From an uncultured Archangium sp. (lineage in GTDB: Bacteria > Myxococcota > Myxococcia > Myxococcales > Myxococcaceae), in contig CAIVGN010000197.1 in assembly GCA_903905455.1 (NCBI GenBank), forward strand, positions 62,001 to 126,000: 64,000 nt of DNA, read 5' to 3'. This document shows positions 36,598 to 57,930 of this stretch, in pieces; the first letter of the stretch is position 1, and every line of letters starts with the position of its first letter. The notes under the pieces are model-generated. The model ran no database searches. It saw only the letters and a program-made list of their open reading frames with translations, and was not told the origin of the DNA. A program made the translations under genes and the position numbers.

Positions 36598-38463
36598 TCA
36601 GAAGCGGATGCCGACGACCGCGCGCAGCGCCTGGGCATTCTCGGAGGGGATGCGATTGCCGGCGATGGTGGTGCCCGGGCCCGAGTCGAGGCCATCGCGC
36701 TTCATGAAGCCCTCGAGCGGGAAGAGGATGCCGTACTGGAGCTGGCCGAAGAACCCGTCCTCGGTCTCGTAGCGGACGCCGCCGTTGATCTCGATGCCCA
36801 GCGAGTTGCCGGCCTCGGTGTAGCGGGCGCCGGGGGTCGACTCGACGAAGATGGCGCGCGAGTAGATGAGCGCGGCGTAGGCCTCGAAGCCCTGGGTGAT
36901 GCGGTACTTCGCGCGGGGCTTGAAATAGAGGCTGTCCGTCACGCCGCCGAGGATCTCCCGGTAGAGGATCATGTCGACCCGGTAGTCCTTGTTGAACCGG
37001 AAGTTGTTGATCTCGTTGTCGCTGCAGCCCGAGTCGCAGCGGTACTGCGGGCCGTCGGTGTCGCCCAGCTCCGTGGCGCCGTTCGCGCCTGAGCCCTTGC
37101 GGCGGGGCGCGTTGCCGAAGCCCGCGGCCTTGTCACCCGACGCGAAGCCGACCTCGCCACCGATCTCGAGGTCGCCGTTGAGCAGCTTGACCTCGCCCTG
37201 GATGACGCCGCCGAACTGGTACACGTAGAGCGCCTGGTTGGCGTCGGTGGCGGCCGCGGACAGCGCGCGGCTCTGCATGCCACCTAAGATCGCGGCGGCT
37301 TCCATCTCGATGCGGAACTCCTTGCGCTCGATCTTCGCCCACAGGTCGGGGATGAAGAGGTCGGCCTTGCGGAGCACCGCGGGCTGCGAGACGCCGCTCT
37401 GGGCGCTGCCTTCGGTGGTGGCCAGCGGGGCGGAGAGCGTGTCCACCGCGTCGTTGCGCTGCGTGCGGTAGGTGAAGTGCAGGCCGTAGTTGAAGACGAA
37501 GCTGCCGGAGTTGAGGCGCGCGGTGCGCTCCTGCTCGGTGTCGCGGCGCTGCACCGCGAGGATGTAGCTGTGCGCGTCGTCTGAGTTCGAGAGGTCGAAG
37601 GGCTGGCCACCTTCGAGCGTGCGCGGGGACGACGGGCCTTCGACGTTAAAGTCGAGCATCGGGGTGATGTAGAAGCCGGGCAGCGGTTCGGCGGTGAAGC
37701 TCACGCGATCGACCGTGTCGCCGTAGTCGTTATCGATGCCGCTGCCGTCGTTGTAGAGCATGCCGAGGCCCCAGTGGCTGGGCATGCGGCCGAAGCGCAG
37801 GATGCCGACGGGCGTCGAGACCTCGCCCCACACGCGCTTGACGGCGATGGAGTCCTGGAGGCTGTTGATGCCGCTGCGCTGCGTGGTCTGGCTGGCCGAG
37901 AAGATCGAGAACTCGTTGCGGTCCGACCAGTAGCCGTTGCCGGCGTTGCGCGAGTACGCGTAGTCGGGGGTGCTGCCCCAGATGAGGTTGTCGAGCGCGT
38001 CGACCTGGGCGCGGATGCGCACCTCTTCGGAGACGTTGATGGTCGGCTCGAAGCGGAAGCGCATGTTCACGCCGGCCTGGGTGCGCTCGTTGAGGCTCGA
38101 GGGCGACCGGGGGAACAGCGCGTAGCCGGCCGAGTCCGTGCCGCGGCCGAGATCGAACTTGTAGAAGAGCTCGGGGCGGGCGCGCAGGTAGCCGTCGAAG
38201 GTGACCAGCTCGAGCTTGCGCTTCTCGTCGACCCAGTCCTCCTGCCAGCCCTGGGCGACGGACTGGGTCGCCAGCTGGGCACGCATCTCCTCGCGGAGCT
38301 CCTTCACTTCGCGGCGGGCGGCCTCGAGGCGGGCGTCGAACTCCTTGCGGAGGTCCTCGCTGGAAGCGGCGGGCGCAGCCGTCGGAGCCGTGGTGCCGGC
38401 ATCAGCCTGAGCAAAGACGAAGGTAGACGACAGCGCGATGGCCGCCAGCAGGACGCGATGCAT
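36598..38463 (-). CDS. Outer-membrane beta-barrel protein (TIGR04551-like)
   Basis: Protein of 621 residues with signal peptide 1-18. A coiled-coil segment follows (about 38-70, EDLRKEFDARLEAARREVKE), recalling the periplasmic stalk of some porins. The rest is a long series of amphipathic strands rich in Tyr, Phe and Gly. It ends AVVGIRF, with the terminal Phe of BAM-inserted barrels. The sequence resembles the TIGR04551 family, which I associate with myxobacteria. Transport substrate is unknown. A terminator-like hairpin lies 22 nt before its ATG. Confidence 0.8.
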   Translation of the reverse strand: MHRVLLAAIALSSTFVFAQADAGTTAPTAAPAASSEDLRKEFDARLEAARREVKELREEMRAQLATQSVAQGWQEDWVDEKRKLELVTFDGYLRARPELFYKFDLGRGTDSAGYALFPRSPSSLNERTQAGVNMRFRFEPTINVSEEVRIRAQVDALDNLIWGSTPDYAYSRNAGNGYWSDRNEFSIFSASQTTQRSGINSLQDSIAVKRVWGEVSTPVGILRFGRMPSHWGLGMLYNDGSGIDNDYGDTVDRVSFTAEPLPGFYITPMLDFNVEGPSSPRTLEGGQPFDLSNSDDAHSYILAVQRRDTEQERTARLNSGSFVFNYGLHFTYRTQRNDAVDTLSAPLATTEGSAQSGVSQPAVLRKADLFIPDLWAKIERKEFRIEMEAAAILGGMQSRALSAAATDANQALYVYQFGGVIQGEVKLLNGDLEIGGEVGFASGDKAAGFGNAPRRKGSGANGATELGDTDGPQYRCDSGCSDNEINNFRFNKDYRVDMILYREILGGVTDSLYFKPRAKYRITQGFEAYAALIYSRAIFVESTPGARYTEAGNSLGIEINGGVRYETEDGFFGQLQYGILFPLEGFMKRDGLDSGPGTTIAGNRIPSENAQALRAVVGIRF

Positions 38464-38483
38464 GAGCAGCGTTCTCCGAAGGG

Positions 38484-38518
38484 TAAGAAACGCGCGGGGT
38501 GTAGCCCACCCCCGCGCC
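38484..38518 (-). terminator. Rho-independent terminator after mce, in the leader of the barrel gene
   Basis: On the minus strand GCGCGGGG (38517-38510) pairs with CCCCGCGC (38499-38492) around a 10-nt loop, followed by TTTCTT (38490-38485). It should end the mutM-mce transcript 60-100 bp after the mce stop. Because it ends only 22 nt before the next ATG, it could also act as an attenuator. Confidence 0.65.
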
Positions 38519-38580
38519 AGAAGGGCACTCTTTTTCCAGAGTTGCGCGTACGGCTGGCCGCTCGACCGATTTCGAGAAGC

Positions 38581-39006
38581 TCAGTGCGCCCGGGGGCCCT
38601 GGCGCAGCTCGGTGAGCACGCCGTGTGCCCCCTTGGGGTGAATGAAGGCCACCTGGGCCCCGCCGGCGCCGATCTTGGGCGTCTCGTCGAGCAACTGGGC
38701 GCCCTTGGCCTTGAGCTCGGCGAGCGTGGCCACGATGTCGTCGACCTCGATGCAGACGTGGTGGAGCCCCTCGCCGCGCTTCTCGAGGAACTTCGCGACG
38801 CTGGAGCTGGGATCCGTGGGGCACAGCAGTTCGATGCGGCCCATGCCGTGACCGAAGATGGCGGTGCGCACCTTCTGCTCGGCGACCACCTCGAGCTCCG
38901 GCGGCGCGAAGCCCAGCACGTCGACGTAGTACTGCACGGCGACCTCGAGATCCTTCACGGCGATGGCGACGTGCTCGAGGCCCTTGGCTTTTCCGGTGGG
39001 GTGCAT
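38581..39006 (-). CDS. mce: Methylmalonyl-CoA epimerase (glyoxalase/VOC fold)
   Basis: Interconverts (R)- and (S)-methylmalonyl-CoA in propionyl-CoA metabolism. It has 141 residues with two VOC modules: LEHVAIAVKDLEVAVQYYVD at the N-terminus with the metal His, and GLHHVCIEVDDIVATLAELK in the middle. GAQVAFIHPKGAHGVLTEL carries the C-terminal Glu ligand. The length is typical. Its ATG shares one base with the mutM stop. The cobalamin adenosyltransferase gene at 58.98-59.53 kb would supply the cofactor for the mutase, which is not in the window. Confidence 0.9.
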   Translation of the reverse strand: MHPTGKAKGLEHVAIAVKDLEVAVQYYVDVLGFAPPELEVVAEQKVRTAIFGHGMGRIELLCPTDPSSSVAKFLEKRGEGLHHVCIEVDDIVATLAELKAKGAQLLDETPKIGAGGAQVAFIHPKGAHGVLTELRQGPRAH

Positions 39007-44177: not shown

Positions 44178-45038
44178 ATGTCTGAAGCGCTCGAGCTGAA
44201 GCTGCTGTCGCGCGTCATCCGCACCATCCACACCCACGGGCTGCTGCGCGAGGGGGACAAGGTGATGGTGTGCCTCTCGGGCGGCAAGGACAGCTACACG
44301 CTGCTGCACCTGCTGGAGCGCGCGCGCCGGAAGTTGCCGATGAAGTTCGAGCTGGTCGCGGTGCACCTCGACCAACAGCAGCCGGGGTACGACGGCGCGC
44401 CGTTGCGCCACTGGCTCGAGGGCTGCGGGGTGCCCTTCGAGATCCTCTCGGAGAACACCTACGCGGAGGTCGTCGCGCGCACGAAGGAAGGGGGCACCTT
44501 CTGCGCGGCCTGCAGCCGGTTGCGGCGCGGCATCCTCTACACCGCGGCGCAGCGCCTGGGCGCGACGCGCATCGCGCTGGGGCACCACCGGGAAGACACC
44601 CTCGAGACCTTCCTGCTCAACCTCGTCTACTCGGGGCGCATGCAGGCCATGCCCGCGGGCTACCGCACCGACGACGGGAGGTTCGAGGTCATCCGCCCGA
44701 TGATCGAGTGCGCCGAGTCGGACATCGCCACGTTCGCCGCGGCCCAGCGCTTCCCGATTCTCCCGTGCAACCTGTGTGGCTCGCAGAAGGACCTCAAGCG
44801 CGAGTCGATGAACGCGTTGCTCACGCAGCTCGAGGCGATGAACCCCCACGTGCGGCAGTCGATGCTCGGGGCGCTGTCGAACGTGCGCGCCACGCACCTG
44901 CTGGACACCGACGTCGCCGAGGCCTGGGCGGTGCGCCCGGCACACCTCGCGGCGCGCAGTGAAGCGAAGGACACGAAGGCCCGCTTCGCCGCCCTGCCCG
45001 TGCACTCCAGCGTCGACCGGCTGCTCGCCCCGCCCTGA
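44178..45038 (+). CDS. ttcA: tRNA 2-thiocytidine(32) synthetase TtcA
   Basis: Cytosolic Fe-S enzyme that thiolates C32 of certain tRNAs using ATP. It has 286 residues. PP-loop SGGKDSYTLLHLL (about 36-48), the first Cys pair in FCAACSRLRRG and the second in LPCNLCGSQKDLKR are intact, as is GHHREDTLETFLLN. The start ATG follows GAGGTGA at six bases. The last 15 codons (HSSVDRLLAPP) lie inside a repeat whose other copies are at 46.04 and 57.03 kb. Confidence 0.95.
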   Translation: MSEALELKLLSRVIRTIHTHGLLREGDKVMVCLSGGKDSYTLLHLLERARRKLPMKFELVAVHLDQQQPGYDGAPLRHWLEGCGVPFEILSENTYAEVVARTKEGGTFCAACSRLRRGILYTAAQRLGATRIALGHHREDTLETFLLNLVYSGRMQAMPAGYRTDDGRFEVIRPMIECAESDIATFAAAQRFPILPCNLCGSQKDLKRESMNALLTQLEAMNPHVRQSMLGALSNVRATHLLDTDVAEAWAVRPAHLAARSEAKDTKARFAALPVHSSVDRLLAPP

Positions 45039-45068
45039 TCAACGCGGCGCGAGGCCCACGCCGGCGAG
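44994..45068 (+). repeat. Island-border repeat, copy A (ttcA 3' end / EamA 3' remnant)
   Basis: Holds the last 15 codons of ttcA plus 30 bp that on the minus strand read L-A-G-V-G-L-A-P-R-stop, almost identical to the end of the EamA protein encoded at 57.05 kb (LAGVRLAQR). It matches copy B (46042-46116) at about 65 of the first 73 positions and copy C (57031-57078) at 44 of 48, counted by eye. Confidence 0.8.
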
Positions 45069-45272
45069 AGGGTCTCACCCTTTCCGACAATCGAGCTCCC
45101 CTCGCCAGCCCCGGACAGAAAGCGCTGCACGGCGAACTGCGCTTCATGACCACCCCCAACGTCGCGCATCCCGGGTGCGACGAAGTTCACAAGGGAGCCC
45201 GGCGCCAGGCCGCGACCCTCAGCGCGCGACTTGGCGGCCACCAAGTCGCCTCAGCTGAGGCAAGCTGCGGAA

Positions 45273-45971
45273 ATGCTCACCTTGCTGCTGCTGGCCGCCG
45301 CGCCTGTGCTCCCCGCTCCCTTCGAGAAGCTCGAGCCCGTGTGTCTCAACGCGAGTTGCTCGCTGGTGGTCTACGCAAACAAGGGCACCCTCACGGCGCC
45401 GAAGAAGGAGGTCGAAGGCGAGGAGGCCGTCGCGCTGGGCGTCATGACCTTCGGCGCGGGCAAGAAGCGCTGCGTGCAGTTCTCGATGGGGCCCAGCGAC
45501 GACCCGCAGCTGGTCATCTCGCCGGAGGCCGCCTGCCAGCCTGGCAGCACCCTCGAGCCCGAGCTGACGGTCGGCGGCCAGCAGTTCATCCTGCCTGGCA
45601 CGAACGTGCTGTACGCGCTGGGTTCCAGCAACGCGAAGTTCACGCTGCGGCAAAAGTTCGTGCTCGGCGACAAGGGCTGGAAGCCCGCACCGCAGCCGTT
45701 CTTCTACGTAGGCGAGAAGGTGAAGGTGCCCGCGAAGAACGCGCTGGGTGAGCCGGTGACGTCAGTCCCGCTGCTCGCAGAGCGGAAGGTGGGCGCCGAG
45801 GTGGTGGTGAACGTCGCGCCCGGACAGACGGTCGAGATTCTCGTCGCCGAGCCAGACCGCTCCGCGCAGTGGTTCCTGGTGCGCACCGAGCTCGGATTGG
45901 TGGGTTGGTTTCACTCGCCCGGCTCCAACGTGATGCCGGACGTGCTCGGGCTCTCCTACCACGGTGACTGA
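45273..45971 (+). CDS. Secreted protein with SH3-like C-terminus
   Basis: Protein of 232 residues from the ATG at 45273 with a signal peptide (MLTLLLLAAAPVLPAP). The middle is beta-rich (SLVVYANKGTLTAPKKEVEGE, FSMGPSDDPQLVISPEAAC). The last 60 residues (EVVVNVAPGQTVEILVAEPD, then WFLVRTELGLVGWFHSPG) have the shape of a bacterial SH3 domain, a common wall-binding module. No specific homologue is recognised. It is the only gene between repeat copies A and B. Confidence 0.65.
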   Translation: MLTLLLLAAAPVLPAPFEKLEPVCLNASCSLVVYANKGTLTAPKKEVEGEEAVALGVMTFGAGKKRCVQFSMGPSDDPQLVISPEAACQPGSTLEPELTVGGQQFILPGTNVLYALGSSNAKFTLRQKFVLGDKGWKPAPQPFFYVGEKVKVPAKNALGEPVTSVPLLAERKVGAEVVVNVAPGQTVEILVAEPDRSAQWFLVRTELGLVGWFHSPGSNVMPDVLGLSYHGD

Positions 45972-46485
45972 AGCGCCCCTCAGCGACCGCTTCAGGCGCG
46001 CACACCCTTCGGTGACACGAGGACTCACAGGCCTTCTCGAGCTGTCCGCGCACGCCAGCGTCGATCGGCTGCTCGCCCCGCCCCGAGCAACGCGGCGCGA
46101 GGCGCACGCCGGTGCCCACGCCCACTGCCACCGCCCGCGAGAGCGAATGCGTGCTGCCCGCACGCAGGGTGACGGTCGGACCCTGCGCGTGCTGCGAGGG
46201 TCACACGGCGCCGGGCACCACCCATACGCCGCAAGCCAACGTGCTCCACAGCGACGGTTTCATCGGTTCCCCGGGGGGTGGTGTTCGTTTCTTGAGCGGG
46301 CTTTACGCTTCCCTCTCGGCGAGGCCGACACGTCGAGGCTTTTTCTCGATGCGTTCGCCAGGCCGCGCGAATAGGGAGCCGGCGAAGCGCGTGGCGCAGC
46401 GAGGACGAGGGAGGTTCCCACCCTGCCCGGCGCGACGGTGCGCTAGAGTGACCCCTCTGCAACATTCAGCTGGAAGGACACACGT
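45972..46485. other. 514-bp gap holding repeat copy B; no gene seen
   Basis: Frames are open but have no start context or recognisable product. Apart from copy B at its left part, the right half (about 46240-46350) is less G+C-rich than the surroundings. That half may contain the promoter of the binding-protein/kinase pair; I could not identify convincing -35 and -10 boxes. Confidence 0.45.
46042..46116 (+). repeat. Island-border repeat, copy B
   Basis: Translates as HASVDRLLAPPRA in the ttcA-tail frame, so the ttcA stop is lost. The minus strand reads GVRLAPRCS, so the EamA stop is lost too. It is a non-functional duplicate of the ttcA/eamA 3' junction, 1048 bp to the right of copy A without gaps in the alignment. 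Confidence 0.75.
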
Positions 46486-47658
46486 GTGCTGAATAGCTTG
46501 AGCCTTGCGCTGCTGGTCCTCTCAGCCACCCCCCCTGCCTTGCCGGCGGCCCCCGCCCCACCCGTGCAGGTCGGTCTGGACGCGGAGTTCAGCCTCGACA
46601 ACAGCATCTCGGCACAGGCCATCGAGCAGGGCCTGCGCATCGCGATGGCCGAGATCAACGCCCAGGGTGGTGTGCTGGGTGGCCGTAAGCTGGAACTGGT
46701 CACGCGCGACAACGGCTCGATCCCCGCACGCGGCGTCAAGAACATCCGCGAGTTCGCGCAGATGCCCGACCTGGTAGCCGTCTTCGGGGGAAGGTTCAGC
46801 CCGGTGCTGCTGGAAGAGCTGCCCACCGTCAACGAGACAGGCCTGCTCCTCATGGCGCCGTGGTCATCCGCCGATCCGATCACTCAGAACGCCCTGACCC
46901 CCAACCCGGTGTTTCGCCTGTCCCTGAAGGACAGCCTCGCCGTGCCGAAGATGCTGCAGTTCGCGGCCCAGCGCGGCCTGAAGAAGGTGGGGCTGCTGCT
47001 CACCAACACCGGCTGGGGCCGCAGCAACAAGGCAGCGGCAGACGGCTACGCGAAGACGCACAAGACGCCCGAGATCGTCCACACGGCCTGGTACAACTTC
47101 AAGGACACGACGCTGGTCGACAAGTACGAATCACTGCTCAAGGCCGGAGCGGCCGCCGTCATCCTCGTGGCCAACGACGACGAGGCGGCCACGCTGGTGC
47201 GGGAGATCGCGGCCCTGCCGCCGGCCCAGCGCGTGCCCATCCTGAGTCACTGGGGCGTCGCCGGCGGCCGGTTCGTCGAACAGGCCGGCCCCGCGCTGTC
47301 GCAGCTGGATTTCACCATCATCCAGACCTTCAGCTTCTTCAATGCCAAGCCAGACGCGCTCAAGCGCTTCTTCGCCAGCGGCAAGGCTTTTGGCCTGGAG
47401 AAGCCCATCGATGTGCGCGCGGCTGTGGGCGTGGCTCACGCCTATGACCTCGTCCACCTGCTCGCAGTCGCCATTGACCAGGCCGGGACCACCGACCGAG
47501 CCAAAGTGCGCGACGCGCTGGAACACCTGCCCCGCCACCAGGGACTCATCAGGACCTATGAGCATCCCTTCAGCCCCAGCAACCACGATGCACTCGGGCC
47601 AGAGCAGCTGCTGATGACCCGGTATCGCGAGGATGGAGCCCTCGTCCCGCTCCCGTGA
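46486..47658 (+). CDS. ABC-type branched-chain-amino-acid-like periplasmic binding protein
   Basis: Peripla_BP_6 protein of 390 residues with a signal peptide ending ALPAAPAPP. VQVGLDAEFSLDNSISAQ, GLRIAMAEINAQGGVLGGRK, VKNIREFAQ, VAVFGGRFSPVLLEELP and DRAKVRDALEHLPRHQGLI follow the leucine-binding-protein fold. No permease or ATPase genes accompany it; instead the hybrid kinase gene starts inside its stop codon. I therefore infer a sensory co-receptor in place of a transporter subunit. The start is a GTG at 46486 with GGAAGGA upstream. Confidence 0.88.
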   Translation: MLNSLSLALLVLSATPPALPAAPAPPVQVGLDAEFSLDNSISAQAIEQGLRIAMAEINAQGGVLGGRKLELVTRDNGSIPARGVKNIREFAQMPDLVAVFGGRFSPVLLEELPTVNETGLLLMAPWSSADPITQNALTPNPVFRLSLKDSLAVPKMLQFAAQRGLKKVGLLLTNTGWGRSNKAAADGYAKTHKTPEIVHTAWYNFKDTTLVDKYESLLKAGAAAVILVANDDEAATLVREIAALPPAQRVPILSHWGVAGGRFVEQAGPALSQLDFTIIQTFSFFNAKPDALKRFFASGKAFGLEKPIDVRAAVGVAHAYDLVHLLAVAIDQAGTTDRAKVRDALEHLPRHQGLIRTYEHPFSPSNHDALGPEQLLMTRYREDGALVPLP

Positions 47659-50192
47659 GCAACGCCGTCCAGGCGCCCAGCCTCGCGCAACGCATCGCGC
47701 TGTTCAGCGCGGGCCTGCTCGTGGCCTTCATCCTGGCGCTGGGCGGCATCTCCTGGCTGCTGATCCGCAGCGAGCAGGCCAACGCGCAGCGCCAGTTGCT
47801 GGACCGTGACCTCCAACTGCAATCCAGCCGCATCGGCAACCTGATCAGCACCCTCCACGGCGGCATGGCGGATGTGGCGCGCAGCAGCCTGATCTCCACC
47901 GCGCTGGTCGATAGCCTCGGCAAAGAGGCCTACCTCATTCCCTACCTGCAGGGCCTGCGGCGCATCGACGGGATCCCCATCTCCCTGGCCTTCACCGACT
48001 TCGAAGGCAAGGAGATCGCGCGTAACGGCAACCCCGGTCTCACCGATGCGGATTTCGACTGGCTGCGCACGCTGCTGGCCGACCCGACCCGTCCGACCGC
48101 GACCATCCTGGGCCGAGGCGACGCCGCGGAGCTGCGCGTCGCAGAGCTGATCTACTACTCGCGCACCCGGACACCCGAAGGCGCCCTGGTCTATCGCCTG
48201 AAGCTCAGCGACCTCTCCGGCGCCGATGCCCCGCTGCACTGGCTCGGCGACGGCTACACGCCAGATCAAAGCGCCATTTCCCGAACGCTCACCGTTCCCG
48301 ACGCCCTGCAGCCTCTGGGCCTCGAACTGTCCCTGCACGACGGCAAGGTCGTCCCCCTGGCGGCGGACCGGGTGCTGCTGCTGTTCCTGGGGATGACGCT
48401 GCTGGCCATCGGCCTGGCCATCTGGGCCACGCGTCGCATCGCCGAACACCTCACGCGCGACCTGAAGCAGCTGTCGGGCTTTGCGACGGACGTCATCGCC
48501 CATGGCCTGGGTGACCAACGCGCCAACCCCAGCGGCACCCGCGACATCCGGCAACTGGCGGACGCCATCAACAGCATGCTGGACCGGCTGAAGACCCAGC
48601 ACGAACAACTGCAGCAGGAGAGCGAGGCGCAGTTCCGCAGCCTGGTCGAAAACATGCCCGGCGCCGCCTACCGCTGTGACGCACTGGACATCGGGCGGCT
48701 GGACTACGTCAGCCCTGGCATCGAGGACCTGACCGGCCATCCGCCCGGCGATTTCATCCACAACCGCCGCACGTTCACGGACATCGTCCATCCGGAGGAC
48801 CGGGCACAGCGCCAGATCTCCCCCGAGAGCCCGACCCACGTGTGGGAGTACCGCATCCTGCATGCCAGTGGCGAGAGCCGCTGGATCTGGGAGCGCAATC
48901 ACCTGCGCGAGAGCGCCGATGGCCAGTCACATTTCCTGGAAGGTGTGCTGGTCGACATCAGCGAACGCAAGAGCGTGGAGCAGACGCTGCTGAAGGCCAA
49001 GGGCATGGCCGAGTCAGCCAACCTGGCCAAGACGCAGTTCCTGGCCACCATGTCGCATGAGCTGCGCACGCCGATGAGCGGCATCCTCGGCATGGCGCAG
49101 CTGCTGATGGCCCACGATCTCTCGACGACCAAACGGCTCGAATACACCCGCACCGTGCTGGACTCCGGCCAGATCCTGCTGGTGCTGCTCAATGACATCC
49201 TCGACCTCTCGCGCATCGAGGCGGGGCGGCTGGAGATCAAAGAATCAGCCCTCAGTCCCGAGCGGATCTGCCAGGACATTGCCGCGTTGTTTGCCGCCTC
49301 CGCGCGGAGCAAACACCTGCAGGTCAACTGCCGCTGGAACGGTCCGGCCGGGCAGTCCTACCTCGGCGACTCGGTGCGCCTGCGGCAGATGCTCTCCAAC
49401 CTGCTCAGCAACGCCGTGAAGTTCACCGAAGAGGGCCGCATCGACATCGAGGCCAGCGAGGTGGGCCGCGTCGATGGACACGCCACGCTGGAGTTCTCGG
49501 TCACGGATACCGGCATCGGCATCGAGAACGCCAAGATCGGCCTGCTGTTCCAGCCTTTCTCGCAAGTCGACAACTCCAATACCCGGCGCCATGGCGGCTC
49601 GGGACTGGGCCTCTCCATCGTGAACAACCTCGCCCTGCTCATGGGCGGGTCCGTGGGTGTGGAGGCCCGTCCCGGCGAAGGTTCGCGGTTCTGGTTCCGC
49701 GTGCAGGCCACGCCCACCATCGAACTGGCCATCGACGACTCCGGTCGCACCCGAGCCGAGGTCCTCGGTGCGCGCGAGGCACTGCCTGCGACCAGGGCCG
49801 CCGGCTGTCGGGTCATGGTCGTCGAAGACAACCCCACCGTACGCAAGGTGGTGGAAGCCATGCTCGCCAACTGCCACATGCAGTCCAGCGCCTATGCCAA
49901 CGGCGAGGAAGCCCTGGCCGCCATCACCGCCGGGGCCGACCCCCAGATCGTCCTGATGGACTGCCAGATGCCGGTGATGGACGGCTATGCCGCCACCTCG
50001 GCGATCCGCGCGTGGGAGCAGGCCCGCGGACGGCCGCGCGTTCCGATCGTGGCCCTGACCGCCAGCGCCTTCGAGCAGGACCGCGAGAAGTGCATCGCCG
50101 CCGGCATGGACGACTTCCTGACCAAGCCCGTGGACCTGGACGAACTCCTCCGCGCCGTAGACGCGTGGGTCCGGATCAAATCCGCGGCTTGA
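47655..50192 (+). CDS. Hybrid sensor histidine kinase (HAMP-PAS-HisKA-HATPase-REC)
   Basis: Inner-membrane kinase of 845 residues. TM1 10-33, periplasmic sensor about 34-235, TM2 236-258, HAMP about 258-310, PAS about 328-435 (FRSLVENMPGAAYRC), HisKA with phospho-His in MSHELRTPMSGIL (near 465), HATPase with LLSNAVKFTEEG, DTGIGIE and GGSGLGLSI (570-680), and REC 718-842 with VVEDN, Asp in VLMDCQMPVMDG and Lys in LTKPVD. The GTG overlaps the binding-protein stop by 4 nt. Ser is written mostly AGC and Asp often GAT, unlike the TCG/GAC habit of flanking genes, which suggests transfer from another proteobacterium. Confidence 0.93.
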   Translation: MSNAVQAPSLAQRIALFSAGLLVAFILALGGISWLLIRSEQANAQRQLLDRDLQLQSSRIGNLISTLHGGMADVARSSLISTALVDSLGKEAYLIPYLQGLRRIDGIPISLAFTDFEGKEIARNGNPGLTDADFDWLRTLLADPTRPTATILGRGDAAELRVAELIYYSRTRTPEGALVYRLKLSDLSGADAPLHWLGDGYTPDQSAISRTLTVPDALQPLGLELSLHDGKVVPLAADRVLLLFLGMTLLAIGLAIWATRRIAEHLTRDLKQLSGFATDVIAHGLGDQRANPSGTRDIRQLADAINSMLDRLKTQHEQLQQESEAQFRSLVENMPGAAYRCDALDIGRLDYVSPGIEDLTGHPPGDFIHNRRTFTDIVHPEDRAQRQISPESPTHVWEYRILHASGESRWIWERNHLRESADGQSHFLEGVLVDISERKSVEQTLLKAKGMAESANLAKTQFLATMSHELRTPMSGILGMAQLLMAHDLSTTKRLEYTRTVLDSGQILLVLLNDILDLSRIEAGRLEIKESALSPERICQDIAALFAASARSKHLQVNCRWNGPAGQSYLGDSVRLRQMLSNLLSNAVKFTEEGRIDIEASEVGRVDGHATLEFSVTDTGIGIENAKIGLLFQPFSQVDNSNTRRHGGSGLGLSIVNNLALLMGGSVGVEARPGEGSRFWFRVQATPTIELAIDDSGRTRAEVLGAREALPATRAAGCRVMVVEDNPTVRKVVEAMLANCHMQSSAYANGEEALAAITAGADPQIVLMDCQMPVMDGYAATSAIRAWEQARGRPRVPIVALTASAFEQDREKCIAAGMDDFLTKPVDLDELLRAVDAWVRIKSAA

Positions 50193-50308
50193 AGGACCGG
50201 GGGCTGGCCTCGAGCCTCGAGGCCGTGTGGCCGAAGCTGTCACGCACCCGCACGGTGAAGGAAGGCGCGAGCACCCCACTACCGAACTGCCGGCGCAGCC
50301 TCAGGCCC

Positions 50309-51229
50309 TCACGAGAAGGTCGTCCTGGTGAGCGCCTCGGAGCGACTCCACAGCTCGGCCGCCGACTTCTCGTCGCGCGACTTCGCGTTCGAGCCCACCT
50401 TCTTCGGGTAGCCGTACTGCTGCATGAGGCCGTCGGGGCCGAAGTAGTCGCCTGACGTCACGTCGGGCGCGCTCGCGGCGTACAGCGTGGGCAGCGCCCC
50501 CATCTCCGCGCTCTGGGCCATGATGCTGTTGCCCAAGTTCATGAACCACGCGCCGAACTTCGAGCCCGTCATCTGCGCGCCGACGCCCTGCAGGTTGGTC
50601 GCCGCGTAGCCGGGGTGCGCCGCAGCGACGATGGTCTTCTTGCCCGCCGCAGCGAAGCGACGCGCCGCCTCGTAGGTGAAGAGCAGGTTCGCCAGCTTGG
50701 CCTGCCCGTAGCGACCCCACGCCGAGTACGACTTCTCGCCCATCAGGTCGTCGAAGTGCATGGCGCCCCAACGATGCGCCGAGGAGGCGACCACCACCAG
50801 GCGCGGCGCCGTCGCCGCCTCGAGCAGCGGCAGCACGCGCAGGGCGAGCGAGAAGTGACCGAGGTGGTTGGTGCCGAGCTGCATCTCGAAGCCATCGGCC
50901 GTCAGCCGCCGGGGGATGGCCATGATGCCGGCGTTGTTCACCAACCCGTCGACCACCGGGTGCTCGGCGGCGAGTGCTTCGGAGAACCTCGCGATGGAGT
51001 CGAGCGACGCGAGGTCGAGCGTCATCAGCTTCAGCTTCGCCGCCGGCGCCATCCGGCGAACTTCGTCGGCGGCGGCGGAGGCGCGCTTCGGGTCACGGCA
51101 CGCCATCACCACCAACGCGCCCTTGAGCGCGAGGCCCCGGGTCGTCTCGAAGCCCAGGCCCGAGTTGGCACCCGTCACCACCCAGGTCCGCCCCTCGAGG
51201 GAGGGCATCTGCTCACGCGTCCATGTCAT
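50309..51229 (-). CDS. Short-chain dehydrogenase/reductase
   Basis: NAD(P)-dependent oxidoreductase of 306 residues, retinol-dehydrogenase-like in layout. Cofactor site TGANSGLGFE, NNAGIMAIP, catalytic Ser in VVASSAHRWG and the Tyr/Lys pair in YGQAKLANLLF are present, then HPGYAATNL. The substrate is unknown. The start ATG at 51229 begins MTWTREQMPSLEGR; the longer open frame upstream is antisense to a lipoprotein gene. Confidence 0.92.
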   Translation of the reverse strand: MTWTREQMPSLEGRTWVVTGANSGLGFETTRGLALKGALVVMACRDPKRASAAADEVRRMAPAAKLKLMTLDLASLDSIARFSEALAAEHPVVDGLVNNAGIMAIPRRLTADGFEMQLGTNHLGHFSLALRVLPLLEAATAPRLVVVASSAHRWGAMHFDDLMGEKSYSAWGRYGQAKLANLLFTYEAARRFAAAGKKTIVAAAHPGYAATNLQGVGAQMTGSKFGAWFMNLGNSIMAQSAEMGALPTLYAASAPDVTSGDYFGPDGLMQQYGYPKKVGSNAKSRDEKSAAELWSRSEALTRTTFS

Positions 51230-51463
51230 GGCGCGCCTTCTACCTTCAGGCCTGCGCGAGCGCGCGGAGATCCAACCGGGCTCCCCCGGCGAGCGCGCCC
51301 TCGCGCGCGGTGAAGCGTCGGCCCGCGCGAGCGCGAACAGGTCTGCACGAAGCGTCGCGCTCGGCAGGCACGACGACCTGAAGGACGCCGACGGCTCGAC
51401 TGCGCCGCGCCGGCGGGGCGCACCCCTGATTGCTCTGGGCCTTGGCGCATGGTGAGTTCTTCC

Positions 51464-52189
51464 ATGCGTTTTTCCTGGCTCGCGTCGCTGGTCGTCACGC
51501 TGTTCACCTCGCTGGGGTGTGAGGTCGCGGTCGAAAAGGACGCAGGCTGTCCCTCGACCGGGGTGCCCAACAGCAACAACGTCGTCGGCATCAACTCGCC
51601 CACGCTCTACGACTGCTCCGTCGCGGCCTGCGCGCCGCTGTCGGTCTGTAACGAGTCGACCGTGCCGAGCACGTCTGGCCAGACGCCCCTCTGCCCGCTG
51701 GGCGAGACCTCTTGCAGCGACGGCATCGACAACAACCGCAACGGCTTCCTGGACTGTGAAGACTGCGGGTGCTGCGCCGACCCCAACTGCGCGAACTCGG
51801 TGGCCTGCGGGTGCGAGCAGATTCCCGCGAAGCTCTCGTTCGCCGGGTACGCGAAGGTCGACGGCGGCGGCGTGCCCGCGTGCGTGGCCAGCGCCGACAG
51901 GATCGTCGTCGCCCAGAATGGCTGCTACGCGTGGTTCTCCTCTCGCACCCCCGCAGGTGCGCTGCGACAGGCCGTCGGCCCGCAGACGATCGCGCGCACC
52001 GGGCCCCACCGCTACCACGTGGCCTGGTCGGAGACGGGTGGCGACCTCACCGTCACCGAGACCAACGCCTACGCCCTCGACATCGACACCGAGGCCGGCG
52101 TCGTCACCGGCACCTGGCTGCAGACAGAGAACACGCTGCACCCCAGCTCCAACGTTCGCTACCCCCTGTGTGGACTGAAGGCGGAATGA
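51464..52189 (+). CDS. Lipoprotein with Myxococcus-type metal-binding motif
   Basis: Lipoprotein of 241 residues from the ATG at 51464; the leader ends TSLGC. Residues about 50-110 are Cys-rich and contain CSDGIDNNRNGFLDCEDCGCC, the Asp/Asn-rich loop typical of the putative metal-binding motif of myxobacterial secreted proteins. The C-terminal half looks like one beta-sandwich. It is the first of three lipoprotein genes with 4-nt overlaps. Confidence 0.75.
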   Translation: MRFSWLASLVVTLFTSLGCEVAVEKDAGCPSTGVPNSNNVVGINSPTLYDCSVAACAPLSVCNESTVPSTSGQTPLCPLGETSCSDGIDNNRNGFLDCEDCGCCADPNCANSVACGCEQIPAKLSFAGYAKVDGGGVPACVASADRIVVAQNGCYAWFSSRTPAGALRQAVGPQTIARTGPHRYHVAWSETGGDLTVTETNAYALDIDTEAGVVTGTWLQTENTLHPSSNVRYPLCGLKAE

Positions 52190-53217
52190 AGATGAGGATC
52201 CTTCGACTGCTGTGCCTCGCCGCGCTCTCCCTGACGGCCTGCGGCCCGGACACCCGGCCCTTCAAGCTCGTCACCAGCGCCGACCTCACCCCCACTGGTC
52301 TCGTCGACGCCGACGGCATCTTCGGCGTGGTGGCCAACGACGACCTGGTGGTGGTCGGGCGGCGGCGCGGCGAGCTGCTCGTCTTCGACGGCAACCAGGC
52401 CTTTCTCACCACCAAGCCGCTCGAGGACCAGGCCCTCAGCCGCGTCTCGCTCGACGACACCACGGGCGCTGGCTGTCTGGCGATGCGCGGCACCACTGTC
52501 TACGCGGGGCTCGCGGGCAACACGCTCAAGGTCATCTCCCTGGCGGACCCGAAGAAGCCGGTCATCACCGACAGCCTCATCATCATTCCCCTCCCTGTCG
52601 TCGCGACCCTCAACTCGCACTTCCTCTTCATCAGCAGCCGGGTGCGCACCCAGGCCATCGATCTCTCGACCTCGCCGCCGACCGTCGTCTCGCCCGAGCT
52701 GCCCCTGACGTCGGTCCTCGCGTTGGCCGCGAGCGACACGCACCTCTACTCGAGCGACATGAGCCGCGAGGCGGCCATCGACGTGTGGGCGCTCGACGCG
52801 AAGGGCGGGGCGGCGCACGAGCAGCGCGTCCCGGTCACCTCGCGCATCACCGCGCTGACCGTGCACGGCTCGACCCTCTACGCCGCGAATGCGGGTGTGT
52901 TGGCGCTCTTCGACCTCACCAGCGCAGACGGCCCGAAGGCGCTCAACCCGAAGCCTGGAATCGTGCGGCATACCCAGACCTGGACCCGCGGGGAAGGCAT
53001 GCAGGGGGTCGCGGTGATGGGAACCCAGAACGCCGTGGGGCCGTCCAACGGGCCGGTCTTCTACGATCTCTCGAAGCCCGAGGCCGTGGAGGGCGCGAGC
53101 ACGGATGACGTGATGCTGGCCGGTGGCGAGCTGGAGCTGCAGAACTACGCCGCTGCGACACGGGCCCGCTTCTGGACGGCTGGCGAGACGAAGGTCTTCG
53201 TCTTCGGCCGCGAGTGA
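52186..53217 (+). CDS. Beta-propeller-like lipoprotein
   Basis: Lipoprotein of 343 residues; the leader MKMRILRLLCLAALSLTAC is clear. Repeated units (VVANDDLVVVGRRRGELLVFD, AMRGTTVYAGLAGNTLKVISL, TALTVHGSTLYAANAGVLALFD) have the spacing of LVIVD or YVTN propellers. Function unknown. The ATG overlaps the previous stop as ATGA, and its own stop overlaps the next start. Confidence 0.72.
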   Translation: MKMRILRLLCLAALSLTACGPDTRPFKLVTSADLTPTGLVDADGIFGVVANDDLVVVGRRRGELLVFDGNQAFLTTKPLEDQALSRVSLDDTTGAGCLAMRGTTVYAGLAGNTLKVISLADPKKPVITDSLIIIPLPVVATLNSHFLFISSRVRTQAIDLSTSPPTVVSPELPLTSVLALAASDTHLYSSDMSREAAIDVWALDAKGGAAHEQRVPVTSRITALTVHGSTLYAANAGVLALFDLTSADGPKALNPKPGIVRHTQTWTRGEGMQGVAVMGTQNAVGPSNGPVFYDLSKPEAVEGASTDDVMLAGGELELQNYAAATRARFWTAGETKVFVFGRE

Positions 53218-54788
53218 CCCTCATGAGAGCCGCACAAGTACTCGCGCTCGGCTGCCTGCTCGCCGCCTGCGAGGTCAAGAAGGAGCCCGTCGACGCGGGG
53301 CCCCGCACCATTTACTGGTCGGTCGAGCTGGTCGGGCGAGACCTGGGTCCCACCCAGGTGGTGCGCCTCCCGCCGAGCGTGCCGTACAAGATCTTCGATG
53401 ACGGCACCATCCTCGCGGTCGACCGCGCGAAGGTCGCGAAGTTGCGAGCTCCACAGACCGGGGTGTGGACGGCGATCCCACTGCCCACCCTCGCCGAACA
53501 GGCCGCGGGTGCGGCCCTCACCCAGGACCTTTCCGTCACCTGGTACCAGGACGCCAGGAACTATGGCGGCGTCGGATTCACCACGGGTTCCTCCGAGTAC
53601 GGCTGGGCGAAGGTCGACGGCGTGTTGCACCAGTGTTCGACCGGCGCATGCACCCCCGTGGCGCTGCTCGACGGAGGGGTGCTCGTGGTGCGGGCGCTCG
53701 ATCGATACTTCGGAACCTGGACCCCCGGTGAACACCCCGCCACTCCCGGCAGCATCATCGACAGTACCGACATCCACACCGCCGGTGACCTCGGGCTCCC
53801 GTGCTGGGTGCCGAGCAAGGTCAGCACCAACGGAAGGATCTGGCTCTCGAAGGCCTGCGACGCGAACGTTCCTCCCATCGTCATCATCGACTACCAGGCT
53901 GGAGGGCAGCAGCTCGACCTCGGCTACTCGCAGTTCGACGACGGCTTCACGGGCGGAAACAGCGGTCCTGGCACCTGCTGCGCGGTCGGCGACATGAACG
54001 CCAACGGCGACCTCCTCGGTCGAAAAGCAGGGTACCCCGTCATCAAGCGGGGCACCGAGTACGAGCGCGTCGCGGAGACCAGCGGCTACGCCTTCTTCCT
54101 CAACAAGCGGGGTGACGTCATCTACCGCGACGACTCGAACTCCACCCACATGCGGCTGGCGGGCGAGACGTTCGACTTCGCGCCCGACAACTACAACGAG
54201 GTCGTCAGCCAGTTGGTGGACGAGACCGGACCGCAGTCCGTCGACAACTACCTGCTCGAGCGTGGGCTCTACCTGGGCGAACAGGGGCAGCTGCTCTTCT
54301 GGAGCAGGGCCGGGCTCTACCTGGCCACGCCCTCGACGGTGCGCCACTTGAACTGCACCCGCCGCGGGACGTTCACCTTCACGCCTCGAGAGGGAACTGG
54401 AACTCCGGCGCGGCAGCCCCTGCTCGTCAAGGCCGCGACCGGGCGCTTCTCGGCCTCGCAGCTCGAGATCTCGATCCTGCGCACCGTCGTGAACGACTGT
54501 GGCGCCACGACCGATGAGGTGCGCGTCACCGCCGCCAGCGGCGCTCAGTTCGTCGAGGGGGGCGTGGTGCCTGCGAGGACGTCGGTCGGCGTCGGCGGCA
54601 GCGTCATCACCGCGAGCGCCGTGTTCATCGACGCGAACGACAACCACGCCCTGGCCACCAACGGCGGGTTCCGCATCTCGAACGTGACCGACGCAGGCTT
54701 CACCGCCACGGCGGAGGGGCTGGTGGTGGAGAACGTCGACGGCACCGAGGTCTATGACGTCAGCGGGGAGATCCTCGTCACCCCGTGA
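53214..54788 (+). CDS. Large lipoprotein of unknown function
   Basis: Lipoprotein of 524 residues from a GTG at 53214 that overlaps the previous stop as GTGA; an ATG at 53223 gives a cleaner leader. Lipobox LLAAC. The body is beta-rich with many Asp/Gly turns (GDMNANGDLLGRKAG, FLNKRGDVIYRDDSN), resembling HAF/propeller repeats that report variable text-like loops. The last 130 residues resemble an Ig-like domain (VRVTAASGAQFVEGGVVPA, then TSVGVGGSVITASAVFIDAN). No homologue is named. Confidence 0.7.
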   Translation: MTLMRAAQVLALGCLLAACEVKKEPVDAGPRTIYWSVELVGRDLGPTQVVRLPPSVPYKIFDDGTILAVDRAKVAKLRAPQTGVWTAIPLPTLAEQAAGAALTQDLSVTWYQDARNYGGVGFTTGSSEYGWAKVDGVLHQCSTGACTPVALLDGGVLVVRALDRYFGTWTPGEHPATPGSIIDSTDIHTAGDLGLPCWVPSKVSTNGRIWLSKACDANVPPIVIIDYQAGGQQLDLGYSQFDDGFTGGNSGPGTCCAVGDMNANGDLLGRKAGYPVIKRGTEYERVAETSGYAFFLNKRGDVIYRDDSNSTHMRLAGETFDFAPDNYNEVVSQLVDETGPQSVDNYLLERGLYLGEQGQLLFWSRAGLYLATPSTVRHLNCTRRGTFTFTPREGTGTPARQPLLVKAATGRFSASQLEISILRTVVNDCGATTDEVRVTAASGAQFVEGGVVPARTSVGVGGSVITASAVFIDANDNHALATNGGFRISNVTDAGFTATAEGLVVENVDGTEVYDVSGEILVTP

Positions 54789-54914
54789 GCAGGCATGGCG
54801 TCAGCCTTGGCGGCTTGTGCCCCCACGCCATCGGGTGGGGGACTCGAGCCGGAGGAGCGCCTGGCGAGGCGAGGACGATTCGCGAGCTCGGGTCGTCATG
54901 CGCCAGTGCACGAG

Positions 54915-55784
54915 TCAGGGAATGGGGCAGAACGTCGGCTCGCCAGCGAGCTCTCGGCGCCACAGCACGCGGGTGCTCACCCCGCTGAGGAAGTAGCGGG
55001 TGAAGCCGCCGCAGTTCGCCGGGCCTTCGAGCTTGCTGGAGACCTTCAGCTTCACGCCGCCCAGCGCATCGACGGGAACAGGCCAGCCCGGCGCGCGCGC
55101 ATCTACGAAGTTCATGCAGGGGTAGGGCCCCGAACGCGTCGCGGAGAGTTCACCCAGAGTGCACGTGCTCGGGTCGAACGGGAGCTCGCCGCACTCACTG
55201 GCCGCCGGGTCTGCCTCGCGCCGAGGCCCGCCCGACACGAGGTCCGAGGCGTTCCACACCAACTGAATGCCGGACGCCGTCGCGCGCGCGAGCACCGACA
55301 GCGCATTCGCTCGAGGGGGCACGCGGAGCGCCAGCTCGCAGGTCTTCGCGTGGCCCGACGCGGACTCGACGAACACCACCCGCACCTTGCCGCCGTGCGA
55401 GCTCACCGCAGAGTAGAGGAACGGCCCCGTCGCCCCGATGGTGGCGTTCGAGTTCGAGAAGTCAGCGACGCGGAAGCGCTCCTTGCCCGTGTGGCCGTCA
55501 AAGGCAACGAGCACCTGGTTCGCGTCGAGCGCAAACACCACCCCGCGCGCGAGGTCGACCCAGGCCTTGCCCGAGGTCAGCGGCCGCAGCACGGGCACCA
55601 GCCCGGGGATGACTGGGCCCTCCACGGGCGCAGTGGGAACCGGCGCGGGCTGAGGCGGTAACGCCACGATGACCGGCCTCGCCGCCGGCGCGGTCGGAGC
55701 CGGCGCCGGAGCAACGGGAGGGGGGCTGCGCACGGTGGCGCAGGCCGTCGAGAGGAGGACCAACGTCAGGGGGAGGCGAAGCAT
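54915..55784 (-). CDS. Pro-rich lipoprotein with PQQ-like segment
   Basis: Lipoprotein of 289 residues; leader MLRLPLTLVLLSTAC. A Pro/Ala/Val linker (about 20-65) leads to beta strands such as VDLARGVVFALDANQVLVAFD, then GHTGKERFRVADFS, close to a PQQ/YVTN propeller blade. Four to six Cys lie in the C-terminal half. Function unknown. It converges with the three-gene lipoprotein operon (126-bp gap). Confidence 0.7.
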   Translation of the reverse strand: MLRLPLTLVLLSTACATVRSPPPVAPAPAPTAPAARPVIVALPPQPAPVPTAPVEGPVIPGLVPVLRPLTSGKAWVDLARGVVFALDANQVLVAFDGHTGKERFRVADFSNSNATIGATGPFLYSAVSSHGGKVRVVFVESASGHAKTCELALRVPPRANALSVLARATASGIQLVWNASDLVSGGPRREADPAASECGELPFDPSTCTLGELSATRSGPYPCMNFVDARAPGWPVPVDALGGVKLKVSSKLEGPANCGGFTRYFLSGVSTRVLWRRELAGEPTFCPIP

Positions 55785-55823
55785 CCGGCCATCGACACCC
55801 AGCGCACCGCTGAATTCAAGCGC

Positions 55824-56006
55824 TCAATGCAGCCGCGTCCAGTCGACCACGGGGACGACCTCCCTTGCGATGCGGTGCTCGACCGAGACCCACGGCCAGA
55901 TGATGTCGCCACCACGACTGGGCGCTGACGTGACACACCCACACGGCATCAGGCGCAAGCCGCGAGCCCACTTCTTGCTGCTGAAGCCGGGCTTCACCAC
56001 CTTCAT
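55824..56006 (-). CDS. Possible 60-residue protein
   Basis: A frame from the ATG at 56006 with strong G/C in third positions. It encodes a basic N-terminus, MPCGCVTSAP, and a Trp-rich middle (DIIWPWVSVEHRI). No ribosome site is visible. The surrounding 368-bp stretch (55785-56152) holds nothing else I can name, so this is a guess based on composition. Confidence 0.25.
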   Translation of the reverse strand: MKVVKPGFSSKKWARGLRLMPCGCVTSAPSRGGDIIWPWVSVEHRIAREVVPVVDWTRLH

Positions 56007-56152
56007 ACTTGCGCGCGCGCGTGCGAAGACTGTCGGAGTCGCGGCAGTGGGCCACGCCACGGCGGTCGGCGCAGGCCCTTGCGGCGCGCAGCGACTTCGC
56101 CTGCTCGCGCTCCAACCAGGGGCCTGCGTCATTCTCGAGGAGGGTGCCCGTG

Positions 56153-56746
56153 ATGCTCAGCCTGTGGGCCCTCCTCAGGGTGGTGAACGTCATCTTCCTC
56201 ACCCTGACGGTGGTGTTCGCCAACGGCCTTCGGCTCAAGGTCACGGGAATTGCGCTCGGCGCAGGCCCGCGACTGCTTCGCCGTTCGGTCGCTGGCGTCG
56301 AGGTCTCTGTGGGCCCCCTGCGGTGGTCGGGCTTCGGGAAGTTCTCGGGAGACGCAGGGCGCGAGTCACTCCCGCCCCGGAAGCGGCTGGTCGCGAGTCC
56401 TGGGCCCTTCGGGATACTGGTGGCGGTGGGTCTCCTCGGTGGCGTGCCGCCAGGCCTGCTGCCGACGTTCGTCGCGCACTTCTTCGAAGGCGCCCTTCAA
56501 CCGTTTGCCGTCGCGCGCCCGCTGTTGCTGGCCTCGGCCGAGTTCGCGCACGCGCAGCCCGGTCAGGCCTTCCTCGGAACGCTGAACTTCATGCCTATTC
56601 CTTCGTTGGCCGGCTGGCAGTTCGTGGGAATCGTCGCAAGGAGACGACTCGAGAGGACGTCGATGGTCGGCATGTTCGGTTTCTTCCCGGCCACGGCGAA
56701 CTGGCTCGTGGCCTTCGTCAGCGCCCTCGTCACGACCGCCCGCTGA
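56153..56746 (+). CDS. M50-like membrane protein lacking the zinc motif
   Basis: Membrane protein of 197 residues. The start ATG follows GAGGAGGG at eight bases. The layout echoes site-2-protease relatives. A first helix ends LTVVFANGLRLKVTG where HExGH would sit; LGAGPRLLRRSVAGVEVSVGP matches the 'GFGP' strand after it; LGTLNFMPIPSLAGW matches the N-x-x-P-I-P-x-L-D-G segment, with the Asp replaced by Ala. With neither His pair nor Asp it should have no zinc protease activity. The resemblance is by eye and could be wrong; otherwise it is an uncharacterised membrane protein. Confidence 0.55.
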   Translation: MLSLWALLRVVNVIFLTLTVVFANGLRLKVTGIALGAGPRLLRRSVAGVEVSVGPLRWSGFGKFSGDAGRESLPPRKRLVASPGPFGILVAVGLLGGVPPGLLPTFVAHFFEGALQPFAVARPLLLASAEFAHAQPGQAFLGTLNFMPIPSLAGWQFVGIVARRRLERTSMVGMFGFFPATANWLVAFVSALVTTAR

Positions 56747-57048
56747 AACAAGCAGTGCCGGGAGCACGAAGCGCCGGCCAGCAGGTTCGTCGAACCTGGA
56801 AATGCGATGGGAAGCGTCGACCTGGTTGGGGAGCGCTCGACGCCCACTTCATTCCCTCAGTCTTCGCGGCAGCGTTGCAAGCCGCGTTGAGGCAGCGACC
56901 CTGGGACGCTCGCATTCAAGCGGAGACGAATGGGGGGGGGCGCGTCTGGTCACACGCTTGTGTCACCCGATGCGCCCACCGCCCGGAGGAGCGCGCAGCG
57001 GCAGACGTTGGCAACGCAAGGCTGGAGTTCCTGCGCGCCCCGCCGTGA
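56747..57048. other. 302-bp gap with a 9-G run and repeat copy C
   Basis: No gene is seen. A G9 homopolymer lies at 56932-56940. The right end (57031 onward) is repeat copy C. A long plus-strand frame covers this gap but has no start context or product. Confidence 0.45.
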
Positions 57049-57078
57049 TCAACGCTGCGCGAGGCGCACGCCGGCGAG
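57031..57078 (+). repeat. Island-border repeat, copy C (EamA 3' end / ttcA remnant)
   Basis: Holds the last nine codons and stop of the EamA gene (minus strand, LAGVRLAQR) plus 18 bp reading L-R-A-P-P-stop on the plus strand, nearly the ttcA ending LLAPP-stop. It matches copy A at 44 of 48 positions without gaps. Upstream of 57031 no ttcA similarity is seen. Confidence 0.78.
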
Positions 57079-57930
57079 CACCAGCACCCCGCCGATCGCC
57101 ACTTCCCAGCCCAGCGGCTCGTCGAGCAGCGCCCAGGCCAGCAACGCCGTGGCCACCGGTTGGAAGTTCGAGAACACCGCGACCCGAGACGCGGGCACCC
57201 GGCCCAGGGCGAAGCTCCACAGCGCGTACGAGACGACGGAACTGAGCAACACCAGGAACGCCAGACACCACCAGCCCACCGGCGTGATGGCCACCAGCGC
57301 CTCGGTGGTCACCACGAAGGGCACTACCGGCAGCATCAGCACCCCGCCGACGATCATGCTCCAGGCCGCCGTCCGCAGGCCTCCGTGCTCGGCGGAGAAG
57401 GGGCGGCTCTCCGTGGTCCACACCACCCAGGCCGCGACCGCTCCGAGGATGAAGAGATCGCCCACCAACGGACCCCTTGCGTCTTGCAGCCCCCGCCCCA
57501 GCAGCAGCACCAGCACGCCGGCGAACGCCAGCGCGATGCCTACGAAGCGGATGGGCTTGGCCTGCTCCCGCTTGAGCGCGATGCCCAACAGGTACACGCC
57601 GATGGGGGTCAGCGCGTAGAGCAGGCCGCCGTGGGTCGCCCGGGAGCGCGCGAGGCCGTAGAGAAAGAGGCCCTGGTTCACCGGACCGGCGAGCAGGCCG
57701 AAGACGAGGAGCTTGCCCCAGTCCTTGCGCGGCGGGAGGCGGTGCTCGCGGAAGAACGGGAGGAGCAACAGGAAGACCGCGGCGGCCAGGACCAACCGCA
57801 ATGTCGCCAGGAGCACCGGCGCGATGACCAGGGTCGCCTGCTTCGCCGCGAGGTGCGTTCCCGCGCTGATGGCGATCTGGACGAGGATCGCACCGAGCAC
57901 GACGCGGGGCAGCGGTTGGGCGGTCGACAC
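57049..57930 (-). CDS. EamA/DMT-family transporter
   Basis: Inner-membrane permease of 293 residues with about ten helices in two EamA repeats (about 8-140 and 150-290), the RhaT/YdcZ-like layout. LATLRLVLAAAVFLLLLP, LLYALTPIGVYLLG, VVSYALWSFALGRVPASR and PVATALLAWALLDEPLGW are typical. The substrate, probably a small metabolite or amino acid, is unknown. It lies 12 bp downstream of queG on the same strand. Its 3' end is part of repeat copy C. Confidence 0.9.
   Translation of the reverse strand: MSTAQPLPRVVLGAILVQIAISAGTHLAAKQATLVIAPVLLATLRLVLAAAVFLLLLPFFREHRLPPRKDWGKLLVFGLLAGPVNQGLFLYGLARSRATHGGLLYALTPIGVYLLGIALKREQAKPIRFVGIALAFAGVLVLLLGRGLQDARGPLVGDLFILGAVAAWVVWTTESRPFSAEHGGLRTAAWSMIVGGVLMLPVVPFVVTTEALVAITPVGWWCLAFLVLLSSVVSYALWSFALGRVPASRVAVFSNFQPVATALLAWALLDEPLGWEVAIGGVLVLAGVRLAQR

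Follow-up and report, generated by a model that had tools for sequence, protein, structure and literature searches.

The 12-kb block that separates ttcA from eamA in the genome of an uncultured Archangium sp. has a well supported history of insertion at a former gene junction. We lean, at somewhat better than even confidence, towards a fuller account: ectopic DNA entered the ttcA-eamA junction at least twice, with the target duplicated on each occasion, through break repair or template switching. The window examined here is a stretch of 64,000 nucleotides (positions 62,001 to 126,000 of contig C197; other contigs and genomes are given as C and G numbers). The locus comprises the following features, with the strand given where one applies.

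44178–45038, plus strand: ttcA (tRNA 2-thiocytidine synthetase), the intact left neighbour (NCBIfam NF007972, E 8e-100; 85% in G003, 83% in G005).
44994–45068: junction copy A, 45 nt of the ttcA 3' end and 30 nt of the eamA 3' end.
45069–46041: insert X, 973 bp between copies A and B, without terminal inverted repeats.
45231–45971, plus strand: the one gene of X, encoding a secreted protein with a weak SH3-like C-terminus and no homologue in congeners.
46042–46112: junction copy B, a ttcA tail and an eamA tail outside both genes.
46113–57030: insert Y, 10.9 kb, with no counterpart at the locus in G003 or G005.
46486–47658, plus strand: periplasmic ligand-binding protein (Peripla_BP_6), best relatives 48–51%, in another family of the order.
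47655–50192, plus strand: hybrid sensor kinase (HAMP, PAS, HisKA, HATPase, receiver), overlapping the ligand-binding gene.
50309–51229, minus strand: SDR oxidoreductase (NF004846), the sole orthologue in its own genome.
51246–51323, minus strand: relic of the C-terminal tail of squalene synthase, immediately ahead of the SDR gene, an arrangement shared with congeners.
51449–52189, plus strand: secreted protein with a disulfide-repeat-like motif.
52186–53217, plus strand: lipoprotein-like gene with a paralogue on contig C189 of the same genome (56% in amino acids, 70% in DNA).
53214–54788, plus strand: orphan secreted protein.
54915–55784, minus strand: near-orphan secreted protein with a single weak match, in G005.
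56009–56746, plus strand: M50-protease-like membrane protein (weak, under the Pfam cut-off), possibly a remnant.
57031–57078: junction copy C, 18 nt of the ttcA 3' end and 30 nt of the eamA 3' end.
57049–57930, minus strand: eamA, the intact right neighbour (PF00892, E 9e-42; up to 69% identity in outgroups).

An earlier sequence-only reading had the block bracketed by two repeats made of the two gene ends. Both repeats are real, and alignment confirmed their identity at 44 of 48 positions, but a third copy, B, had been overlooked. Copy B matches A at 90% over 71 bp and C at 89% over 44 bp, and divides the block into X and Y, giving the layout ttcA-J-X-J-Y-J-eamA, where J is the junction. As that reading had also described, ttcA is intact at A (its end, 45038, lies inside the copy), where only the tail of eamA is present, and eamA is intact at C (end at 57049, again inside the copy), where only the tail of ttcA is present. 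The stop codons of the two genes directly adjoin, TGA abutting TCA. The ttcA tail of the repeat is conserved in the congeners G003 and G005, and G022 and G018 conserve the eamA tail, so the repeat consists of true gene ends. With copy A as query, the 8.6 Mb of the same genome (251 contigs) yielded three copies (E 7e-33, 2e-21 and 6e-13, the last from A to C) and no further A-like copy, the next match having E 0.007. The genome-wide search that the earlier reading had called for thus found the junction three times, always at this locus, and a dispersed repeat was rejected. Misassembly was also rejected, since the longest exact match among the copies is 18 bp, too short for an assembler error as judged from the assembly sequence. 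The copies are 8–10% diverged, so any microhomology at the joints is no longer readable. Gapped-alignment extension past the repeat ends did no better than shuffled sequences, the exceptions being a marginal score on the left side of copy C and, for one repeat pair on C72, an excess on the upstream side. No tRNA, tmRNA or RNA-family site was found.

Three of five congeners carry a ttcA of the window type, and in all three queG follows after roughly 0.1–0.65 kb with no block in between. In congeners eamA had no match under the 1e-40 cut-off. In outgroups, which have no window-type ttcA, eamA adjoins queG (G022, G027) or a carbonic-anhydrase gene (G018). The comparison proposed earlier, for relatives with ttcA and eamA adjacent and a single junction, thus turned up none among the sampled genomes, only ttcA-queG and the two outgroup arrangements of eamA. 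Taken together with copy B, these two sets of neighbours make it very probable that ttcA and eamA formerly lay side by side in convergent orientation. The simplest ancestral order for the window lineage is carbonic anhydrase-ttcA-eamA-queG, which is seen in no sampled genome. Since the congeners are collinear and the relatives lack the block, the block is specific to the window lineage; its absence from G003 and G005 also bears out the earlier reading against the possibility that all relatives carry the same 12 kb. That reading was right in proposing a lineage-specific insertion with a duplicated junction, but a single insertion does not suffice: three junction copies require at least two steps.

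The block encodes no protein of the integrase, excisionase, transposase, phage structural or transfer classes, in agreement with the earlier statement that no integrase is present. No site-specific recombinase was found in the block either, and the flanking genes are syntenic with those of congeners. A phage origin was rejected because the matches were generic kinase and SDR ones alone. Base composition gave no sign of foreign DNA: GC is uniform through the block, and the SDR gene has a GC3 of 0.938 against a contig mean of 0.92. The earlier description of the cargo as foreign-looking holds only in part: GC3 is slightly low in most block genes, but GC is uniform and at least one gene, the SDR gene, is native. 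The pair of ligand-binding and kinase genes is found also in G059 and G050, of other families of the order, and may be imported. The lipoprotein-like gene (52186–53217) has no paralogue in the other genomes searched. Source loci could be assigned to the SDR segment and, loosely, through the paralogues on C189 (for one block gene) and C55 (for an insert on C72, see below); for most block genes other than the SDR segment no source locus was detectable.

The SDR gene is native to the lineage. Its orthologue is present in all five congeners (65–75% in four, 56% in G001), and three of them (G003, G004 and G005) have it next to the squalene-synthase gene, with a large conserved gene on its other side. 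These two flanking genes were read here as squalene/phytoene synthase and squalene-hopene cyclase, respectively, from sequence motifs and not from a profile search. The squalene cluster of the window genome itself, on contig C182, keeps these neighbours and has no SDR gene. It retains a 3' SDR remnant (about 27440–27560) that matches nucleotides 791–866 of the congener gene, with a score of 54–55 against a shuffled maximum of 33. Conversely, the block holds the synthase-tail relic GRRFTAREGALAGGARLDLRALA, to be compared with the synthase C-terminus GRLFEGLHHELDVGARLDLKALA. Among 1294 gene tails of the same genome the synthase of that genome ranks best for this relic, and the relic's protein score is 51 to this enzyme and 31–36 to the congener enzymes. 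The presence of a synthase tail and a 3' SDR end at both loci shows that the move was a copying of the segment, followed by deletion of the original. An SDR tree places the block copy among the congeners, at the end of a long branch. This branch, together with the fact that the block gene and the C182 remnant no longer match each other significantly, shows the copies to be old.

The same contig offers, at nagZ, a second and independent example of this architecture, for which the empty site is clean. Contig C197 (134 kb) is near-fully collinear with G003:C1 and G005:C114, and the insertions longer than 4 kb specific to the window lineage are the ttcA/eamA block and C197:26771–31240, besides a complex interval (7–15 kb). 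The second insertion sits between nagZ and an aspartyl-protease-like gene, 76 kb from the block; in G003 and G005 the two genes are 154 bp and 76 bp apart, respectively. With its repeats it spans C197:26668–31343 (∼31–35 kb left of the window start), and it adds 4.5 kb with a VanY-type carboxypeptidase gene. The repeat, 103 bp long and identical at 98 of 103 positions (95%), runs from the 3' end of nagZ across the spacer into the first codons of the gene that follows, and its junction score was 90.5 against a null maximum of 37.5. A target duplication around the insert and a single target copy in relatives are thus both present at nagZ; at the window locus relatives lack the block, but they have lost eamA as well. 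The test that scored gaps for junction repeats passed over the window block, for which queG served as right anchor. Most of the lineage-specific gaps longer than 0.7 kb in the three genomes had no junction repeat, so junction duplication is not the sole route of gene gain.

Within 1.61 Mb of sequence from the window genome, five further gene-tail repeats surround inserts, namely the one at nagZ and four on C72 and C46.

C72, 26860 and 36069: 112 bp, 80%, gene-tail repeat around a 9-kb insert.
C72, 46018 and 47758: 111 bp, 81%, gene-tail repeat around an insert.
C72, 64313 and 65801: 64 bp, 97%, an extra duplicated piece of the same gene.
C46, 93359 and 95115: 73 bp, 89%, the tail of a receiver-like fragment.

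The repeats vary in length between 48 and 112 bp and their sequences are unrelated from site to site with no evident shared core, which speaks against a single site-specific recombinase. No terminal inverted repeats were found in any of these inserts, the window block included, and neither these nor the short fixed duplication of a transposon or insertion sequence is seen. The 9-kb insert on C72 has a paralogous three-gene cluster on C55; for the C72 cases relatives offer no empty site to compare, as AceK has a different setting there. No gene-tail repeat of this kind turned up in G003, G005 and G002, but the 0.52 Mb covered is too small a sample to establish a difference. The inserts with their flanking repeats occupy C72:26860–36180, 46018–47868 and 62774–65864 and C46:93359–95187, and contain an EGF/IPT protein operon, a GyrB-like DUF7919 gene, a Uma2 nuclease gene and a GSDH-like gene. 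Many other direct repeats were set aside as copies of a dispersed palindromic element (CCCTCTCCC..GGGGAGAGGG) or as paralogous domains. It is doubtful, though possible, that the lineage gains genes by a recurrent mobile-element-free copy-paste that puts ectopic segments of kilobase length at gene boundaries, duplicates 50–110 bp of the boundary each time and leaves ∼4 scars per Mb.

The junction copies also bear on the order of events. They differ at six variable positions within their shared 44 bp, and one codon of the eamA tail reads CCG in A and B and CAG in C, G022 and G018. Since C has the ancestral base and A and B the derived one, X was probably added after Y, by duplication of a junction that had already changed, as far as this one site can tell.

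A repair or template-switching route is moderately supported for the block. Repair would start from a break or a stalled fork at the ttcA-eamA junction; the broken end would copy ectopic DNA as template and re-join the original locus ∼50–100 bp behind its point of departure, so that the junction would be copied again. Such a departure and upstream return of a fork would give J-insert-J with a J of any length and would leave no inverted repeats, whatever the cargo, which could also be native DNA. A second round of insertion and duplication would then yield ttcA-J-X-J-Y-J-eamA. The inserted DNA would come partly from the same genome, as the SDR segment with its synthase tail suggests; templating from the same genome is seen for this segment, while for the majority of the other block genes no source could be traced. 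The duplicated tail leaves both neighbours intact, which may explain why such insertions survive at gene ends.

A different origin for the same layout would be a tandem array of integrative elements whose att site is the ttcA 3' end and whose integrase has been lost, with A as attL, B as an internal att and C as attR. Genomic islands and cis-mobilizable elements have attL and attR flanks at gene 3' ends, and the block shares with them direct repeats that equal a gene 3' end, an intact target gene and an internal copy as in a tandem array. Unlike genomic islands, the block has no recombinase or excisionase and no phage structural or transfer gene, its repeats have no core in common with the same-architecture repeats elsewhere, and its cargo is partly native, including the SDR segment; we therefore regard this origin as unlikely. 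The Rac prophage of E. coli does integrate in ttcA, but at the 5' end of the gene and with intR and an excisionase, and is unrelated (PMC4632033).

Staggered breaks offer another way to duplicate a junction. In rice, natural insertions with tandem target duplication have been attributed to patch-mediated double-strand-break repair (Vaughn and Bennetzen 2014, as cited in PMC7407515), and, as summarised there, they resemble the block in being ectopic DNA bracketed by a target duplication with no mobile element. The rice inserts are eukaryotic and measure 10–1000 bp in that summary (PMC7407515), whereas those described here are 1–11 kb and carry whole genes. Staggered-break patch repair as described for rice would leave the scar seen here, since it duplicates tens to hundreds of bases of the target. 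That imported or broken-off DNA was inserted twice, independently, by such end joining and with no template copying nevertheless appears improbable, the segment from the genome's own squalene locus being unexplained unless a chromosomal fragment was captured. Single-crossover (Campbell) integration of circular or imported DNA bearing a piece of the ttcA-eamA junction would likewise yield J-insert-J and, in repeated rounds, the observed J-X-J-Y-J. The donor must already join X or Y to a J fragment, 50–110 bp of homology is short for RecA, and the event would have to recur at unrelated junctions, so this is a distinctly improbable source of the block. Homology-facilitated illegitimate recombination, which pairs homology on one side with an illegitimate joint on the opposite side (PMC3240628), is similar to our preferred repair reading in that non-mobile DNA is joined at an illegitimate end; the two-sided junction duplication lies outside its description (PMC3240628). 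A literature search found no bacterial description of the junction-duplication signature, which is weak evidence of absence.

Much of the strain-specific DNA between core genes of bacteria bears no sign of its route of arrival, and junction duplications of 50–110 bp would be a scar from which one non-mobile route could be read. The interest of the block lies in the recurrence of this scar and in a cargo segment that can be traced as an internal copy; the SDR case illustrates how such a block can receive a copy of a native gene whose original is then lost. Should the signature hold across genomes, gains of genes through repair would become directly countable.

Several further observations were made. 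The gap at window positions 38463–38642 (C197:100463–100642) is wider in two congeners, G003 having 5.5 kb there and G005 8.7 kb, and has no junction repeats. The palindromic intergenic element mentioned above (CCCTCTCCC...GGGGAGAGGG) is REP-like and lies near many gene ends on C189, C198, C107 and C55, and also in G003 and G005. A 78-bp intergenic element with the inverted repeat GTCATCAAAATTGACAAC occurs at C72:88776–88853 and 123244–123321; it is AT-rich in a GC-rich genome and a possible operator. The window genome has a second ttcA on contig C248 (2719–3450), 48% identical to the window copy, and this more distant type is the sole ttcA in most relatives searched.
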